From a virus, in the IMG/VR virus record IMGVR_UViG_3300030110_002342, positions 2,750 through 27,570 of that record: 24,821 nt of DNA. One strand, given 5' to 3'. Every line of letters starts with the position of its first letter. Positions within the stretch are counted from its first letter, which is position 1. Below the pieces are notes generated by a model. That model was given only the letters and a program-made list of their open reading frames with translations, had not been told where the DNA came from and did no database searches. The translations under genes and the position numbers were made by a program. This document shows positions 5,227-24,467 of the stretch, in pieces.

Positions 5227-7443
5227 TTAATCTATAATTTTTGATAATTGACCAGTGTTATCATATTTTTTTATACCTAAATCATATTTTTGACGTATAA
5301 AATGTGGAACAGGTCTATATTTATTTTTATTGCAAGCCATTATTGCTAATCCTGAACTAATAGATGCATCATGAGTTGTTCTATTGTTTATATTAAACCT
5401 AGACCAATCTTCTAATGTTTTTTGGAAATACATATCTCCATATTCATTATTTTCTTTTAAACCTATATAAGAATCAATATAAGATTCTATAGCAGCTGCA
5501 TGGGCTTGTTTAACATCTTCACTAGAGTTTGGAATACCTCCAATTTCTTTTTCTGTAATTGATAATTTATTCCAAATTTTATCTGGTCGATTCATTGAAT
5601 AACCTCTATATCCTCTTCTTTTAAAATAATATAACAATCTAGGTTTGTTGTTTTCTGCAAGTATTGGCATACCGTAAAATATACAAGCCATTAATACATC
5701 TTCAAAAAATATCTCAGCTGTTTGCGGTCTAGCTATATATTCTAAAAAGAAATGATTAGGTGGAACATCTTCCATAGAAAACTTAGTTAATCCATGTAAA
5801 GCTCCATTTGATCCTCTACCATCTACTGTTCCTGATATATCATAACTATCACATCCAAAAGCACCTAATTCTTCATTGCCAGGATATTTACTTCCTCTTT
5901 TTAATAATACATTATTTTGTAATCTTTGAGGTGGTACCCAACTAACTAAGAATCTACCATTGTTATTAGGTACAAAAGTAACTGTAGTATCTTTAATTCC
6001 TCCAGCCCACTGAAAAGATCCTTTAGTTACAACAGCACTGTGTTTAATATCTTGATTCCAATCAATTTGTTGATAAATCTTTGTTAAGTTAAATAAAGAG
6101 TTCTTAGATTCATCTCTAAACGCGTGTTTAGTTGTACGTGGAAACTGTCTGTAAAATTCATTTAAAGCATCTTGATCTTCACTTAAACCATCTACTTCAT
6201 TTTTCCAATAATCTAAAACTCCGATTCTAATTTTTTGACCATGGGGATCTTCATCTGGCGTGTTGGGTGTGTCGAATACAGGTAAGCCATAAGCATTAAT
6301 GTATCCTTCGTAATTCCATTCCATAGGTATGAACAAACTATATAATCCTGAGCGAGTCTGTCCATTGGCGTTTCTTTTTGTAACATCGGAATCTTCATAT
6401 AATTTTTTAAAATTTGCACCTCCTTTATCTAAAGCGTTAGATGTAGAACCCATCATGCACTTACCTATAATTCTACTACCTAATCTTAAACATGTTTTAG
6501 TAACTCGCCAGTTATTTAAAATATTATTTGGTCTTTCCCATTTACCACTTTCATCATGTACTAATAATTTTAGTTTTTCACCATCATAACTGTTGTCTCC
6601 AGTATTTTTCCAATCAATTGTAGTATCTAATCCTTGTATTTCTGCAGCAACTTCACCTGTTACTATCTTTCTTCTAGTAAATTTAGAAGCTGGTACTCTA
6701 TATGCTAATTCTGTTTTAGGTCTATCCATACCATCTTGGATAGGTTTAAAAAAGAAAGGATAATTAACTGAAATAGGAACAACCTTATCAGTAAACATTG
6801 TTTTAGCATCAGGTCCAGTTTTAGATAATATACCATATCTTGAGTCACTTGATATTGTAGCTAAATTTACTACTTCACCAGAAGCCATAAACGAAAAACC
6901 AGATCTACGATTTTTAAGATAACACATACCGTAGCATCTATCATCAGCTTTACATGCCTCCCAAAATATAAAAAATAATCTATTTGCTTCTCTAAAATCT
7001 GGTGGTCCAACATCAATCTTAGACCATTGTAAATACATATAATGAGTTCCGGTTAAATAAGTAACTTTATTGCTGTTTTTAAACCAAAAACCATGTTCAC
7101 GTTTAGTAAATTCCACATCAATAAAATCATACCATTTTTCTTTGAAATCTTCTGGGTATTTATCCCATTCAAATACGCTTTTAATTTTACCTAAAACTTT
7201 AGGTAGTGGAGTTCTTTCCCATCTTCCAGATTCAAAATTATGAATTTCTTTAGGGGCTTTAGGTAAAGCTATTTTTAATCCTTGAATTTCATATACTTCA
7301 CCAATCATTCCGGATTTGCTAATTACAATAAAATCATGTTCTTCATTATAACCATATTCCCATTTTTTATACCTATTATTTCTTTTAAGCGTTTTAGCTT
7401 TTACATAATTAGGTAATATCTTATATAAAGTTTGTTCGTACAT
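5227..7443 (-). CDS. terL: Terminase large subunit (packaging ATPase-nuclease)
   Basis: A 738-aa terminase large subunit, the motor that pumps DNA into the capsid and cuts the concatemer. The N-terminal ATPase domain has a deviant Walker A candidate, KNRRSGFS (177-184), a Walker B LKLLVHDES (291-299, D297-E298) and a coupling-motif candidate GSTSNA (332-337). The C-terminal RNase H-like nuclease is supported by GCDSYD (D532), AENN (E597) and THDAS (D692), which give a plausible metal-binding acidic triad. It is longer than typical terminases (about 450-650 aa), as in some large Bacteroidota phages. Its ATG overlaps the stop codon of the preceding small gene (TAATG), which implies translational coupling. 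Confidence is high for the family. The exact P-loop is less certain because the usual GK[ST] is absent. Confidence 0.88.
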   Translation of the reverse strand: MYEQTLYKILPNYVKAKTLKRNNRYKKWEYGYNEEHDFIVISKSGMIGEVYEIQGLKIALPKAPKEIHNFESGRWERTPLPKVLGKIKSVFEWDKYPEDFKEKWYDFIDVEFTKREHGFWFKNSNKVTYLTGTHYMYLQWSKIDVGPPDFREANRLFFIFWEACKADDRCYGMCYLKNRRSGFSFMASGEVVNLATISSDSRYGILSKTGPDAKTMFTDKVVPISVNYPFFFKPIQDGMDRPKTELAYRVPASKFTRRKIVTGEVAAEIQGLDTTIDWKNTGDNSYDGEKLKLLVHDESGKWERPNNILNNWRVTKTCLRLGSRIIGKCMMGSTSNALDKGGANFKKLYEDSDVTKRNANGQTRSGLYSLFIPMEWNYEGYINAYGLPVFDTPNTPDEDPHGQKIRIGVLDYWKNEVDGLSEDQDALNEFYRQFPRTTKHAFRDESKNSLFNLTKIYQQIDWNQDIKHSAVVTKGSFQWAGGIKDTTVTFVPNNNGRFLVSWVPPQRLQNNVLLKRGSKYPGNEELGAFGCDSYDISGTVDGRGSNGALHGLTKFSMEDVPPNHFFLEYIARPQTAEIFFEDVLMACIFYGMPILAENNKPRLLYYFKRRGYRGYSMNRPDKIWNKLSITEKEIGGIPNSSEDVKQAHAAAIESYIDSYIGLKENNEYGDMYFQKTLEDWSRFNINNRTTHDASISSGLAIMACNKNKYRPVPHFIRQKYDLGIKKYDNTGQLSKIID

Positions 7444-15069: not shown

Positions 15070-15516
15070 TTATCTGTTTTTATCTTTATTTACGTTTTTT
15101 ATTGAAGTTTGTAAAACTTTATCCATATATGTTTCACCCTTCATAATTTTGTTTCTTCTATAACTAGTAGGAATATCTTCTTCTCCTAGTAACATTCTGT
15201 ATATTCTTTGAATTAATGTTTTACCTTTAAAAGAAACTTTATATATATTGTATTTTTGAGTTGTTCTATTTCTATTACGCCATACAACAATCCAATTATT
15301 TTGAATTAATTTATTCCACCTTCTATTATCCCAACTATAAGAATAACTACCCATTTTAAAATCTTTAATTGTGAATAAATCTACACAATCTAAATATATG
15401 AGTAGTTCTAAATCAGCATCAGTTAAGTCGTTATTTTTGGAAGCCCATTTGCGTATTATACGGTAATGTTTAAGCAAGTTTATATTTTTAATATCACTTG
15501 CGGTTAGCCTTTTCAT
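15070..15516 (-). CDS. Winged-helix-like basic protein
   Basis: A 148-aa basic protein. LKHYRIIRKWASKNNDLTDA, a second helical segment (DLELLIYLDCVDLFTIKDFK), WDNRRWNKLIQNNWIVVWR and the YNIYKVSFKGKTL strand pair give a helix-helix-helix-wing order, as in MarR-like winged-helix domains. Recognition helix and wing carry many Arg/Lys/Trp. It may bind DNA and regulate late genes, or be a virion protein: both are inferences. Its start overlaps the GroES stop by 4 bp, so it is co-translated with the chaperonin genes. Confidence 0.6.
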   Translation of the reverse strand: MKRLTASDIKNINLLKHYRIIRKWASKNNDLTDADLELLIYLDCVDLFTIKDFKMGSYSYSWDNRRWNKLIQNNWIVVWRNRNRTTQKYNIYKVSFKGKTLIQRIYRMLLGEEDIPTSYRRNKIMKGETYMDKVLQTSIKNVNKDKNR

Positions 15517-15776
15517 AAAACAACGACCACATCACTTGATTTAATGACGTGAAATATATCTTTATTTATCTCTATCTGATGTCCAGCATGTTTATCATAG
15601 AAGATTTTATCATTCTTTTTTAATCCTTGAACTTCTTCTCCTACTGATAAAACTTGAGCTTCAATATATCTTATATCTTCTCTTGCTTGTTTATTAAGAA
15701 GCAAACCACCTTTTGATTTAGTAATTCCTTCTTGATTAGCTTTTTTAATTATTAAATTTCTACCTACTGCTTTCAT
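15513..15776 (-). CDS. groES: Phage co-chaperonin, GroES-type
   Basis: An 87-aa GroES-like co-chaperonin, slightly shorter than bacterial GroES (about 97 aa). It would cap the GroEL ring and close the folding chamber. It starts MKAVGRNLIIKKANQ. The mobile loop (about 14-32) reads EGITKSKGGLLLNK, with GG at 23-24 and LLL at 25-27, the positions of the GGIVL contact in E. coli GroES. AQVLSVG, then KKNDKIFYDK, give the central barrel strands, and DIFHVIKSSDVVVVL is the typical closing strand. It overlaps the end of groEL by 17 bp and is translated after it, the reverse of the bacterial groES-groEL order. The partner is the phage GroEL and possibly the host's. Confidence 0.88.
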   Translation of the reverse strand: MKAVGRNLIIKKANQEGITKSKGGLLLNKQAREDIRYIEAQVLSVGEEVQGLKKNDKIFYDKHAGHQIEINKDIFHVIKSSDVVVVL

Positions 15777-17304
15777 CTATTCTGATATTATTAATTACAC
15801 AATCAGTTGATAAAATAGTAGTAGCTACAGAAGCTGCGTTTTTTAAAGCACTTTTAGTAACAAGTAATGGATCAATAATACCTTCATTTATCATATGTAC
15901 CATATTTCCCGTAACCACGTTAATCCCAAAACCATCTTTTTCTAATACTTGAGGTTTTATTCCAGCATTATCTAGTATTGTTTTAAAGGGATATAATATA
16001 GATTTAGTTAATATTTCTTCACCTATATTTTCTTCCTTCATATTCATTGCTGCATTTAATAATGCAACTCCACCGCCTGAAACTATACCTTCTTTAATTG
16101 CAGCTTTTGTAGCACAAATAGCATCTTCAATTCTATCTTGTTTTTCTTTTAACTCAATGTCTGAATTAGCACCTACTTTTACTATTGCTACTTTAGCAGA
16201 TAATCTAGCTAATCTAGTTTCTAATCCAATTACTTCATGAGGTTTTAATTTCTTTTTTAAATCTTTTTTGATTTTAGAAATTATTTTTTCCACTTCTGGA
16301 CTTGTTTCTTCGATTTGAATAATTGTTTGATTTGCTGTAGTTGTTGTCTTTAAACAACTTCCTAAATAATCTAATTCTATTATATTTAAATCATCTCCTA
16401 AATCTTCATTAATTATTTGAGCATTGGTAAGCAAAGCTAAATCTTCTAAGATTTCTTTTCTTCTTAATCCATATGCTGGAGGATCTAATACATTTACTTT
16501 TATATTTCCTTTTACTTTATTCATTACTAAAGCTTGTAGAACAGGAACTTCTACTTCACCTATAATACATAAAGATTTATTCTTTTTAATGATATGCTCT
16601 AAAACATTTTGGATTTGTCTTATAGATTCAATCTTTGAATCAACAATCATTAGTAGAGGATTATCTAATTCACAAACTCCTTTTTCTTTATCGTTTATAA
16701 AATTAGGATTTAATAATCCTTTATCATATTCTACTCCTTCTAATATTTCCACTTCTGTTTGTCCCAGTGAAGAAGGTTCCATCATAACAACTCCAGTTTC
16801 TCCTACTGCTCTAAAAGCATCTCCAATTAATGTTCCTAGTTCTGGATCATTGTTTGTAGATATACTTGCTATCTGATCTATCATATCACCAGATACTGGA
16901 ATAGCTACTTTTTCTAAATAAGAAACTACTTTGTTTACTCCAGATAAAATACCTTCTTTTATATCTCTGGTATTAGTTTTATCTATATGTTTATAAGCTT
17001 CTTGTAATATAGCATGTGCTAAAATGGTAGCTGTTGTGGTACCATCACCCGCTTCTTTAACTGTTTTACGTGCTGCTTCTTTTAATAGCGTTGCACCCAT
17101 ATTTTCAACAGGATTTAAAAGAATTATTGAATCTGCAACGGTAACTCCATCTTTAGTAATAATAGGTTTACCATGCTCATCTTCAAGAATAACACATTTA
17201 CCGCTAGCTCCTAATGTAGAGCTAACAGCATTTGTGAGTTTTTCAATTCCTTTAAATACCTGATTTTTGGCTTCATTGCCAAAATTTAGATTTTTTACAA
17301 TCAT
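15760..17304 (-). CDS. groEL: Phage chaperonin GroEL
   Basis: A 514-aa group I chaperonin, the barrel that folds proteins with ATP. All three domains are present. The equatorial ATP site shows TKDGVTVA with D52, GDGTTTAT with the catalytic D87, and RIEDA with D394 (equivalent of E. coli D398), then GGGVALLNAA. The apical domain runs about residues 190-370 (NFINDKEKGV, VLEHIIKKN, LDPPAYGLRRKE). The C-terminus ends IDESSR and lacks the GGM repeat tail that bacterial GroELs carry, so it is 30-odd residues shorter than E. coli GroEL. It is preceded by a TTAAA-repeat leader and followed by an overlapping groES. It probably assists folding of phage capsid or fibre proteins. The host origin is uncertain, since composition matches its neighbours. 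Confidence 0.93.
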   Translation of the reverse strand: MIVKNLNFGNEAKNQVFKGIEKLTNAVSSTLGASGKCVILEDEHGKPIITKDGVTVADSIILLNPVENMGATLLKEAARKTVKEAGDGTTTATILAHAILQEAYKHIDKTNTRDIKEGILSGVNKVVSYLEKVAIPVSGDMIDQIASISTNNDPELGTLIGDAFRAVGETGVVMMEPSSLGQTEVEILEGVEYDKGLLNPNFINDKEKGVCELDNPLLMIVDSKIESIRQIQNVLEHIIKKNKSLCIIGEVEVPVLQALVMNKVKGNIKVNVLDPPAYGLRRKEILEDLALLTNAQIINEDLGDDLNIIELDYLGSCLKTTTTANQTIIQIEETSPEVEKIISKIKKDLKKKLKPHEVIGLETRLARLSAKVAIVKVGANSDIELKEKQDRIEDAICATKAAIKEGIVSGGGVALLNAAMNMKEENIGEEILTKSILYPFKTILDNAGIKPQVLEKDGFGINVVTGNMVHMINEGIIDPLLVTKSALKNAASVATTILSTDCVINNIRIDESSR

Positions 17305-22104: not shown

Positions 22105-22371
22105 TTATTGTACTATCATTACTATTCCGGCTGCATTTAGCGGAGCTGCACCTAATCCGTCTGTTTGATAAAGTTGTCCTGCTACCAAACCTCCAGCAAG
22201 AGCTGCTGCATTGTCTTGATAACTAGGAATAACTCCTAAACCTTTTTCTACCACAGCTTGAACTGTAAAGTTTTTGGTAGGGTTTCTACTAGCAGTAGCA
22301 TTTATCTTGCTTCCTACTAAATAATCTCCAGCTTCTGGAATTTCTAATGGATATGATGTTATTATTGCCAT
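22105..22371 (-). CDS. Short fibre-related protein
   Basis: An 88-aa protein whose N-terminus (MAIITSYPLEIPEAGDYLVG, then NPTKNFTVQAVV) resembles the fibre start (MAIIYSYPRI, NPTKSVTLSQ). It appears to share the virion-anchor segment, followed by a short Gly/Ala tail, AGGLVAGQLYQTDGLGAAPL, of a kind often found at the ends of small phage proteins. It may be an adaptor or capping subunit, or a remnant of a second fibre gene. It is the first gene of the leftward operon and starts beside the divergent intergenic region. Confidence 0.65.
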   Translation of the reverse strand: MAIITSYPLEIPEAGDYLVGSKINATASRNPTKNFTVQAVVEKGLGVIPSYQDNAAALAGGLVAGQLYQTDGLGAAPLNAAGIVMIVQ

Positions 22372-22392: not shown

Positions 22393-22406
22393 TAAGTATA
22401 TACTTA
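22393..22406. promoter_or_regulatory. 14-bp perfect palindrome, possible operator
   Basis: TAAGTATATACTTA equals its own reverse complement. It lies 22-35 bp from the ATG of the leftward gene at 22371 and may be a dimeric repressor site. The binding protein is not known. Confidence 0.45.
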
Positions 22407-22480
22407 CACAAAAAAGAGTAAATTTACAAAATACTGTGTAATATAGTATATCTATTATATAATACCTTACTCCTATCTAG

Positions 22481-22705: not shown

Positions 22706-22745
22706 TCGAAAGTTAATACGAGTTTATCATGATAATAAAATAAAA
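22706..22745 (+). repeat. 40-bp element R1
   Basis: First of four copies with identical layout: TCGAAA, 2 bp, TAATACGA, 8 variable bp, then TGATAATAAAATAAAA. Here the core is intact. The copy ends 7 bp before the ATG of the 59-aa gene at 22753. The TGA, TAA and TAA are in frame with each other. Confidence 0.8.
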
Positions 22746-22752
22746 CAAAGAT

Positions 22753-22932
22753 ATGATTACATTAACTACAAACAAATATCAAACACAATTAATATCATCA
22801 CTCATTATTAATAACTTACATTATAACTTTATAATATTAAATAATAAATTAATATTTACTCATCAAATCAATACTGATTTATTAACTAAATTATTAAATA
22901 AACATTACTATAAATATAAACTATATAAATAA
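22753..22932 (+). CDS. 59-aa protein, function unknown
   Basis: An ATG seven bases after element R1 opens a frame of 59 codons, starting MITLTTNKYQTQLISSLI and ending KYKLYK. It is Ile/Asn/Lys-rich and unlike known families. The position right after a 40-bp element, like the genes at 23706 and 24469, supports it. A longer plus-strand frame starting at 22605 runs across it and is not preferred, because its start is not behind an element and it overlaps the structured region. Confidence 0.5.
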   Translation: MITLTTNKYQTQLISSLIINNLHYNFIILNNKLIFTHQINTDLLTKLLNKHYYKYKLYK

Positions 22933-22990
22933 TATGTCAATATGTCACATTATGACACTATGACCTATACTTATGACACTATGTCACATA
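22933..22990. repeat. Iteron-like cluster of ATGTCA/ATGACA motifs
   Basis: Within 58 bp, the hexamer pair ATGTCA or ATGACA occurs repeatedly in both orientations. TATGACACTATG appears twice (22951-22962 and 22972-22983), and TATGTCA stands at 22933 and 22941. No gene covers the region. Short clustered direct and inverted repeats suggest binding sites for a phage DNA-binding protein, or an origin. Confidence 0.5.
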
Positions 22991-23008
22991 ATAAACAATA
23001 ATACACTT

Positions 23009-23048
23009 TCGAATGTTAATACTAATTAATGTCGATAATATAATAAAC
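23009..23048 (+). repeat. 40-bp element R4 (degenerate)
   Basis: TCGAAT, GT, TAATACTA, 8 bp, then CGATAATATAATAAAC: the same 40-bp spacing as the other three copies, with substitutions in the core (G to T) and end. It lies 55 bp before the gene at 23104. A small palindrome, AGTTGATAATCAACT (23049-23063), follows directly. Confidence 0.6.
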
Positions 23049-23103
23049 AGTTGATAATCAACTAAATAAATAATAATTAATAACTTAAATTAAAATTAAA
23101 ACT

Positions 23104-23334
23104 ATGACTACACTAAATTTAAAAAGATTTGTGATTAGAAAATCACTAATCGGTAAAAACACAACTATCAATGTTGAATTCAAAAATGGTAAAACTTGCA
23201 CTTACAATCACGATAAAGTGTATGAAATCATGAAAGATAAATTAAATACTCTTCCGTGTTTCAAAAAGTACAACTCATACACTAGTTCAACTAATGTACC
23301 AGTGAGTGTTAGAGAAGTTGTTGAAGTACAGTAA
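23104..23334 (+). CDS. 76-aa protein, function unknown
   Basis: A 76-aa basic protein, MTTLNLKRFVIRKSLIGKNT at the start and SVREVVEVQ at the end. It reads as a short beta hairpin plus helix, with one internal CTYNHDKVYEIMKDKL segment. No family is recognised. The A/T-only leader (TTAAATTAAAATTAAAACT) supports the ATG. It is the first clear gene of the rightward cluster. Confidence 0.7.
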   Translation: MTTLNLKRFVIRKSLIGKNTTINVEFKNGKTCTYNHDKVYEIMKDKLNTLPCFKKYNSYTSSTNVPVSVREVVEVQ

Positions 23335-23349
23335 ACAACACTCTTAAAA

Positions 23350-23392
23350 TAACATAATGGTTCTAGTGAGAGTTCGATTCTCTCAATGTTAA
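23350..23392 (+). ncRNA. tRNA-like minihelix (acceptor stem plus T-arm)
   Basis: TAACAT (23350-23355) pairs with ATGTTA (23386-23391), and between them lie AATGGTTCTAGT and a perfect T-arm GAGAG-TTCGATT-CTCTC (23368-23384). The T-loop has the canonical T54 T55 C56 R57 A58 form. There is no anticodon stem, and the unpaired GG could mimic the D-loop pair. A discriminator-like A follows, but no CCA. This may be a degenerate tRNA, a tRNA-like RNA or chance pairing. No complete tRNA can be built around it. Confidence 0.45.
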
Positions 23393-23407
23393 CTAAATAT
23401 AATAACT

Positions 23408-23497
23408 ATGAATGATAAACTTGACTATTGGACTATGTTCGTTGAAGGCGACATAACACTTGAAACACTAATTGAATTAATAAATGACTATGTATAA
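23408..23497 (+). CDS. 29-aa protein, function unknown
   Basis: A short frame, MNDKLDYWTMFVEGDITLET then LIELINDYV, that overlaps the next start by 14 bp, as happens twice in this cluster (23857 over 23870). The overlap pattern and an AAT-rich leader suggest it is translated. It is very small, acidic, and of unknown function. Confidence 0.45.
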   Translation: MNDKLDYWTMFVEGDITLETLIELINDYV

Positions 23498-23687
23498 AGA
23501 TTATAACAAAGATAAAATTGCTGCAAAGCTAAAACAAGTACTAGAGTTCGAAGCTAAATATGGTGAGAATGATACTAGTAGAGGTTGGAAGAAATGGTGT
23601 AATGACATCAACTATCGCAAGCGTGAGTGGCAGTGGCGACAAAATATCGCTAAATGGAATTCGAAACATAATACGAATCACGTATGA
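23484..23687 (+). CDS. 67-aa protein ending in element R2, function unknown
   Basis: A 67-aa basic protein rich in Trp/Lys/Arg in its second half (WKKWCNDINYRKREWQWRQN), perhaps binding nucleic acid. Its last nine codons (NSKHNTNHV) and stop lie within element R2, so the C-terminus is shaped by the repeat. A second in-frame ATG six bases downstream (23490) could also be used. Confidence 0.65.
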   Translation: MTMYKDYNKDKIAAKLKQVLEFEAKYGENDTSRGWKKWCNDINYRKREWQWRQNIAKWNSKHNTNHV

Positions 23688-23700
23688 TAATAAAATAAAA
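23661..23700 (+). repeat. 40-bp element R2
   Basis: Same layout: TCGAAA, CA, TAATACGA, ATCACGTA, TGATAATAAAATAAAA. This copy matches the T7 class promoter consensus over TAATACGA-TCAC (12 of 13 positions from -17 to -5). It overlaps the end of the preceding gene and lies 5 bp before the ATG at 23706. Confidence 0.85.
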
Positions 23701-23705
23701 TTAAT

Positions 23706-23870
23706 ATGACAAAATTAAACTTAACTAATCAAGAATTATCTATATTGCACAGAGCAATAAAAGTATATCATATAGATTTGATAGAAAATAACTTAGATTT
23801 ACTCTTAGATTATCCAGACGCACTAGAATCAGTAAAAATTAAAATTAAAGACGCTTATGAAAACAATTAA
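23706..23870 (+). CDS. 54-aa protein, function unknown
   Basis: A 54-aa helical, acidic protein, MTKLNLTNQELSILHRAIKV then HIDLIENNLDLLLDYPDALE. It starts five bases after element R2 and overlaps the next gene by 14 bp. No domain is recognised, but the helical heptad-like pattern suggests a small regulatory or anti-host protein. Its position directly behind R2 supports the start. Confidence 0.65.
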   Translation: MTKLNLTNQELSILHRAIKVYHIDLIENNLDLLLDYPDALESVKIKIKDAYENN

Positions 23871-24069
23871 ATTTAAAGGTAAGAATACAATATTCTTAAA
23901 TGGAATCGAATACAAAGGCTATAATGTGGGTGACTTACCTCCATCATTTGGCTTTAAAAAGAAATATCTTGGTCAAGATGAAGATGGAAATGACCAATAT
24001 AAATATGGTAAATCACACTGGTTTAACTATAAAGGTTTAACATTCATAGAAGCTCCAATGAAATGGTAA
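23857..24069 (+). CDS. 70-aa protein, function unknown
   Basis: A 70-aa basic protein, MKTIKFKGKNTIFLNGIEYK then LPPSFGFKKKYLGQDEDGND, with repeated Gly-Lys turns and aromatic residues, predicted as a small beta-rich domain. It overlaps the preceding gene by 14 bp and the next by 7 bp. Function unknown; member of the rightward ORFan cluster. Confidence 0.65.
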   Translation: MKTIKFKGKNTIFLNGIEYKGYNVGDLPPSFGFKKKYLGQDEDGNDQYKYGKSHWFNYKGLTFIEAPMKW

Positions 24070-24251
24070 GTAATATGAAAGAGCTATGCGCTTACGTCGA
24101 AGCTAAAAGACGTAAACGTGCTCATGAGCATTATGAAATGGCTAAAGTATATGGTCCTTGTACAGGAATGGGTAATAAGATGTATAAATTGCAGCAAAAA
24201 TCTTCTTTCCCAAAACAATATAAAGCTGCGTATAATAAAATATGGAGATAA
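24063..24251 (+). CDS. 62-aa basic protein, function unknown
   Basis: A 62-aa basic helical protein, MVSNMKELCAYVEAKRRKRA then HEHYEMAKVYG and a Lys-rich C-terminus. Two starts are possible: ATG at 24063, overlapping the previous gene, or ATG at 24075 (MKELCAYVEA). The first gives the overlap style seen elsewhere in the cluster. It could bind nucleic acid, but no motif is clear. Confidence 0.6.
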   Translation: MVSNMKELCAYVEAKRRKRAHEHYEMAKVYGPCTGMGNKMYKLQQKSSFPKQYKAAYNKIWR

Positions 24252-24454
24252 AAGAATATATAAATAAAGAAATAGAAATGTTAGATAAAGGTCTTGTGGC
24301 TACGCCTACAGAACAATATCTTAATGATTTCTTAAACGCTAACAATGGAAGCAATGACTTCTTATTAACACAAATGGCTAAAAACTATGGTTATAAATTA
24401 GCGTTACTTAATATGTTAGATACAATATCGAAACATAATACGAATAAAGATTGA
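24242..24454 (+). CDS. 70-aa protein ending in element R3, function unknown
   Basis: A 70-aa acidic protein, MEIKEYINKEIEMLDKGLVA then LNDFLNANNGSNDFLLTQMA, ending ISKHNTNKD. Its last residues, SKHNTN, are the same as those of the gene at 23484 because both genes run into a 40-bp element. The rest of the two proteins is unrelated. It overlaps the preceding gene by 10 bp. Confidence 0.6.
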   Translation: MEIKEYINKEIEMLDKGLVATPTEQYLNDFLNANNGSNDFLLTQMAKNYGYKLALLNMLDTISKHNTNKD

Positions 24455-24467
24455 TAATAAAATAAAA
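24428..24467 (+). repeat. 40-bp element R3
   Basis: TCGAAA, CA, TAATACGA, ATAAAGAT, TGATAATAAAATAAAA, identical in layout to R1 and R2. Its TGA terminates the preceding gene and the ATG of the next gene follows one base after it. Confidence 0.85.

Follow-up and report, generated by a model that had tools for sequence, protein, structure and literature searches.

A Repeated Three-Block Element, Probably the Promoter of a Large Group of Uncultured Marine Phages Encoding Their Own Sigma Factor

Introduction

By analogy, the closest precedents for the element described here are Salmonella phage 7-11 and phage phiEco32. In phage 7-11, the sigma factor SaPh711_gp47 reads late promoters of the form GTAAtg-16-aCTA, and in phiEco32 gp36, a sigma without region 4, reads middle and late promoters made of the single block tAATGTAtA (PMC8948821). 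Phage 7-11 shares with the present phages a sigma with region 4, repeated bipartite promoters and early/middle genes divergent from the late genes; however, its promoters have another sequence and drive late genes, whereas an early/middle array with a third block in the spacer is found here, in uncultured marine phages, and the putative link between sigma and promoter comes from sequence comparison. The likeness to phiEco32 lies in a phage sigma, several promoter copies and a start, predicted in the present phages, 6–8 bp past a −10-like box, whereas its one-block promoter and its sigma lacking region 4 are different. Bacteroidota, the probable host group of the relatives, use sigma-ABfr promoters, TTTG/TAHHTTTG (PMC6847099). 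AT-rich leaders without a Shine-Dalgarno sequence are common to both, but the −10 of the element is GATAAT and TTTG is missing. The middle promoters of T4 consist of a MotA box and a −10, with MotA replacing the −35; they resemble the element in having a conserved box near −30 plus a sigma70 −10, and differ in the sequence and position of the box, and no MotA or AsiA homologue was identified in the phages studied here. Finally, mycobacteriophages of cluster K carry start-associated sequences, which are one-orientation repeats 5' of the start codons of small genes (PMC3203893); their sequence is another, and the spacing of the element is fixed to the inferred start and not to the ATG.

Almost nothing is known of how marine flavobacterial-type phages programme their transcription, and the promoter code of their probable hosts is unusual. 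A motif from which start sites, mRNAs without leaders and the cognate sigma can be predicted in more than 100 uncultured genomes would offer a testable regulatory logic, and the element is also an easy genomic marker of a common marine phage group.

The Window and Its Four Elements

The window, the whole stretch of 24,821 nucleotides analysed, belongs to a 27.57-kb phage fragment (IMGVR_UViG_3300030110_002342). Its minus strand carries terminase, portal, capsid-type and GroEL/GroES-like genes, and on its plus strand a block of small genes begins. The nearest annotated relative was found to be MW202828 (terminase identity 63%), followed by Elemovirus phages of Flavobacterium (45%) and Cellulophaga phages (35–38%). 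The GroES- and GroEL-like genes are adjacent in the late block (15513–17304) and are annotated likewise in MW202828 and the Elemovirus relatives. A search for the host through the element pattern in bacterial genomes returned four MAG contigs of conflicting taxa, probably stray phage contigs, and was discarded. The elements and the open reading frames (ORFs) that follow them are listed below, the architecture of R1 being inferred from about 990 related copies.

22706–22745, plus strand: R1, predicted promoter element, read from sequence; −35 region about 22707–22713, spacer block AATACGA 22715–22721, −10 GATAAT 22731–22736, inferred start A22743
22753–22932, plus strand: 59-aa ORF 3' of R1, predicted leader of 10 nt, read from sequence
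23009–23048, plus strand: R4, degenerate predicted promoter element; −10 GATAAT 23034–23039, inferred start A23046
23104–23334, plus strand: 76-aa early ORF 3' of R4, with a homologue in 77 of 84 compared genomes
23661–23700, plus strand: R2, predicted promoter element; −10 GATAAT 23686–23691, inferred start A23698
23706–23870, plus strand: 54-aa ORF 3' of R2, predicted leader of 8 nt, read from sequence
24428–24467, plus strand: R3, predicted promoter element; −10 GATAAT 24453–24458, inferred start A24465
24469–24657, plus strand: 62-aa ORF 3' of R3, predicted leader of 4 nt, with a homologue in 62 of 84 genomes

The first-pass annotation had described four 40-bp elements of fixed spacing, and this description was confirmed, with three exact copies, one degenerate copy and none expected by chance. 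R1, R2 and R3 each match TCGAAA-N2-TAATACGA-N8-TGATAATAAAATAAAA with 0 mismatches, and dinucleotide shuffles yielded 0 matches to this pattern. The degenerate copy, R4 (TCGAATGTTAATACTAATTAATGTCGATAATATAATAAAC), scored 26 bits with the position weight matrix (PWM) of the family, compared with 27–37 bits for R1–R3. No further copy is present in the 27.57-kb record. The TGA within R2 is the stop codon of the preceding ORF (23484–23687), and that within R3 closes the ORF at 24242–24454. The literal comparison with T7 was also correct, TAATACGA being identical to positions −17 to −10 of the T7 promoter, with an agreement of 12 of 13 bases through TCAC in R2. Taken alone and at no more than one mismatch, TAATACGA shows no enrichment over the window (31 occurrences against 28.8 expected).

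Rfam and tRNA scans of the element region gave no match. A tRNA-like minihelix is nevertheless present on the plus strand at 23350–23396, which ARAGORN and Rfam fail to detect, and consists of a 6-bp acceptor-like stem, an AATGGTT linker and a canonical T-arm (GAGAG-TTCGATT-CTCTC), with neither D arm nor anticodon arm and with ACTAA as its 3' end. When the window copy was aligned with 17 sequences from related loci (18 in all), 97% of the pair cells were paired, and changes on both sides were seen in 10 of 11 pairs. It is possibly a processing mark for RNase P/Z.

Distribution in Related Phages

A scan of IMG/VR with AATACGA-N9-GATAATAWAATAA retrieved at least 119 matching stretches from further viral contigs. 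Among the family copies, ACAAA at −24 to −20 is conserved in about 90%, which is no artefact of the search because ACAAA was absent from the search pattern. The 227 sigma-bearing loci were then rescanned with a PWM that ended at the GATAATA block and was therefore blind to downstream bases, yielding 992 non-redundant copies with the consensus TTACAAAcTAAATACGA-N9-GATAATA. Three blocks stand at constant spacing, namely ACAAAc in the −35 region (TCGAAA in the lineage of the window), the spacer block AATACGA, and GATAATA. Complete or long relatives contain about 4–11 copies, which without exception share the strand of the small early genes and are grouped within 5–8 kb adjoining the divergent late operon; across the 227 sigma loci, 1095 copies were forward and 4 reverse.

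The bases at −24, −23, −11 and −1 are almost uniform inside one genome and divergent among genomes, while the adjacent N8 shows no such homogenisation, a pattern that suggests a reader acting in trans and not gene conversion. A promoter family sited at gene boundaries is well supported. The element is regarded as a real and widespread promoter family, probably in use by a large group of uncultured marine phages with a sigma factor of their own.

Predicted Start Site and Promoter Geometry

The base 12 nt past the invariant G of the element was found to be A in 52% and G in 47% of the 992 copies (purine 98.9%), and the rule persisted in copies lacking a nearby ATG (98.3%); none of the other downstream positions was comparably restricted. 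The start codons of ORFs peaked at the same distance from G, with 100 at 12 nt, 2 at 11 nt and 7 at 13 nt. Since the strict purine and the start-codon peak coincide there, 7 nt beyond the GATAAT hexamer, transcription would start at this purine. GATAAT would then be a sigma70-type −10 box at −12 to −7, with A−11 and T−7 kept, and about 10% of the copies would yield leaderless mRNAs. In about 44 copies an ORF start codon lies 6–10 nt from G, that is, 5' of the inferred start, and these ORFs would be untranslatable from it because their start codons precede base 12.

With a 17-bp spacer, the position of the −35 hexamer is occupied by CAAAC(T/A), giving CAAAC(T/A)-N17-GATAAT, and the T7-like AATACGA sits in the spacer at −28 to −22. 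An alternative −35, CACGGACT, was found exactly 17 bp from GATAAT in L262, L381, L425 and L450, and three of the four sigma loci that seemingly lacked the element carry this CACGGACT-N17-GATAAT variant, without AATACGA. Its exact distance is an independent sign of a −35/−10 architecture, and both −35 types fall in the spacing of 16–18 bp between the two parts of a phage-sigma bipartite promoter. A sigma-type geometry of the element family is considered highly likely from the sequence statistics. An initial covariation analysis of 67 genomes had hinted at a reversed orientation, which was dropped because the signals at +12 fit the forward direction only and the covariation weakened with 135 genomes.

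The asymmetric repeat directly 5' of start codons, comparable to the start-associated sequences of mycobacteriophages (PMC3203893), could also be an operator, a stoperator or a translation-start element and not a promoter. This is very unlikely, since the distance from element to ATG varies from about 4 to more than 50 nt whereas the purine is constant at +12 from G, and since the spacing of the element and the alternative −35 at 17 bp look promoter-like.

Comparison with T7 and T4 Promoters

The first-pass annotation had proposed promoters for a single-subunit, T7-type RNA polymerase, with the G at the T7 +1 position. The likeness is literal, as AATACGA equals T7 −16 to −10 and stands equally far from a G, and one copy in a related genome (G001; TAATACGAATTACTATAG) agrees with 16 of 18 T7 bases, which is unremarkable because the set holds about 1000 copies of AATACGA-N9-G. 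However, the element has no conserved CACTATA core and no GGGAGA. T7 bases at −9 to −1 occur in 14–59% of copies per position, as column composition predicts, so that the N9 is no closer to T7 than expected, while T7 +2, +3, +5 and +6 are never matched and what comes after the invariant G is ATAATA and in no case GGAGA. None of 58 related phage records contained a PF00940 gene (the T7 control was positive, E = 1e-109); the genome of the window is itself available as a fragment. A giant late protein (3300 aa, G002) was also considered as a virion RNA polymerase and rejected, with no Pfam or PHROG match and no RNA polymerase motif seen. Moreover, the G is the first base of the predicted −10 hexamer, and the purine and start-codon signals would set the start 12 nt beyond it. 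Initiation at the G by a single-subunit phage polymerase is therefore extremely improbable; the T7 likeness is a seven-base coincidence, and the case shows that no T7-type polymerase is needed for an almost perfect T7 core to appear.

The suggested analogy with the T4 promoter-stem-loop modules failed as well because a conserved stem-loop is absent from R1–R3, which folded no better than shuffles; only R4 deviated (z = −2.1).

Phage Sigma Factor

The relatives encode a 250-aa protein of the sigma70 family (phrog_351, 5e-18), region 2 of which aligns to E. coli sigma70 (E = 2e-8). Its predicted structure resembles sigmaA (Foldseek E = 2e-5), with a region 4 helix-turn-helix at residues 189–240. 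The relatives thus possess a factor of the sigma70 family in which regions 2 and 4 are both present, and the fragment containing the window ends before that gene. Phage residues K100/R101 and G104/R107 align with WW433/434 and Q437/T440 of sigma70, and these replacements make a different −10 plausible. In 177 of 181 testable loci (those of the 227 with at least 4 kb upstream of sigma), the gene lies 2–8 kb to the 3' side of the elements and has the same operon direction. The 11 element-bearing contigs without it all end about 2 kb or less past the last element, where sigma is expected. Both the sigma family and the element are absent from MW202828, an Elemovirus, phi18:3, phi38:1 and Gundel, and the family had no match among 50,697 annotated phage records. 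The beginning of the sigma gene in L325 coincides with the inferred start of an element, so autoregulation would be possible.

Two sigma genes were observed in G015 and likewise in a 129.5-kb contig (IMGVR_UViG_3300047157_000162, comprising L285 and L313), where two element clusters lie about 62 kb apart; the latter is perhaps two joined genomes.

Late-Type Promoter on the Opposite Strand

A second promoter type (class L) was read from the window sequence directly 5' of the first late gene (22105–22371).

22397–22428, minus strand: predicted late-type promoter; TGTAAA (22428–22423), N14, TGTAAGTATATA (22408–22397)

The motif is conserved in about 65–79 related genomes, with the consensus TGTAAA-N17-AAGTAT. 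Covariation was seen between its bases and sigma region 4.2 (familywise p 0.003–0.017), and control proteins were not significant at three of four late positions. Of 39 genomes with Glu228, 37 have G at late position 5, and all 26 genomes with Gln228 have a base other than G there; the rule holds in 63 of 65 genomes, over only 3–4 independent switches. The sigma may serve the late genes, the element or both.

A recurrent motif, TTTAATTATATTATATNATG, was noted immediately 5' of several structural genes, including late genes of the window whose starts lie near 2794 and 13779, as well as G000 positions 5544 and 2614, with counterparts in G001, G002, G003 and G006. A translation enhancer or an internal late promoter is possible.

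Recognition of the Element

On balance, the leading hypothesis, somewhat more likely than not, is that the element forms a phage-specific promoter array recognised by host RNA polymerase bound to the phage sigma. A promoter of sigma70 geometry would be repeated through the early/middle gene block, the phage sigma would redirect host polymerase to it, and the redirected polymerase would reinforce the early/middle block and the operon of sigma itself; the same factor would probably also read the late promoter, which stands apart on the opposite strand. The evidence for reading of this element class consists of co-occurrence and weak covariation, and the co-occurrence may reflect shared descent, as the phages used for comparison that lack sigma are less closely related. 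The covariation of sigma residues with element bases was exploratory (about 20 positions tried), with some signals in control proteins too. In tree fits, the sigma tree needed fewer changes at position −18 than 21 of 21 other families; at −11 it beat 19 of 21, and it also did well on control positions.

Covariation with region 4.2 is stronger for the late promoter than for the element, and residue 228 tracks late position 5, which favours a reading in which host polymerase with a host sigma, perhaps of an unusual host, reads the element and the phage sigma reads the late promoter only. In all genomes the sigma gene comes after the elements, as in a classic early-to-late cascade. Such a division is possible, if somewhat unlikely. 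The logo lacks the −7 TAHHTTTG and −33 TTTG of Bacteroidota housekeeping promoters (PMC6847099), with no enrichment of TAHHTTTG on the early strand nearby, and this difference from the probable host code favours a phage-supplied factor; a phage-borne reader also explains the genome-specific −1 and −24 bases more easily. With the phage sigma as reader, something else must start the cascade, since the element lies 5' of the sigma gene, and a search for a clear host-type early promoter found none.

A composite promoter, in which a phage or host sigma reads GATAAT and a separate phage activator binds ACAAAc-AATACGA in place of a −35, is quite unlikely. It would account for the long conserved block across the spacer (−28 to −22), where sigma contacts are normally few, for the exchange of the entire block for CACGGACT in some genomes, although the sigma recognition helix of L381 is that of ACAAA-type genomes, and for a −1 base that shifts while sigma 2.4/3.0 residues are almost constant. 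Against this, the block exchange was accompanied by no gain or loss of a gene in the neighbourhood of sigma, and no candidate activator was found. Joint reading of a three-block promoter class by the phage sigma and a second phage specificity factor is unlikely; −1 and −24/−23 would then be reset per genome, with the −10-reading residues of sigma constant, and related phages co-infecting one cell would not cross-activate early genes.

Motifs in Annotated Relatives

MW202828.1 (L085/L114), a sister phage without the sigma family and the element, has a different regulatory circuit; it carries 14 copies of a 16-bp palindrome, GTGTCGTTAACGACAC, and an annotated repressor gene. In phi38:1 (L321), the 12-mers TTTGATAGTGTT/TTGATAGTGTTT were counted eight times and are possibly a promoter or operator motif of that phage.
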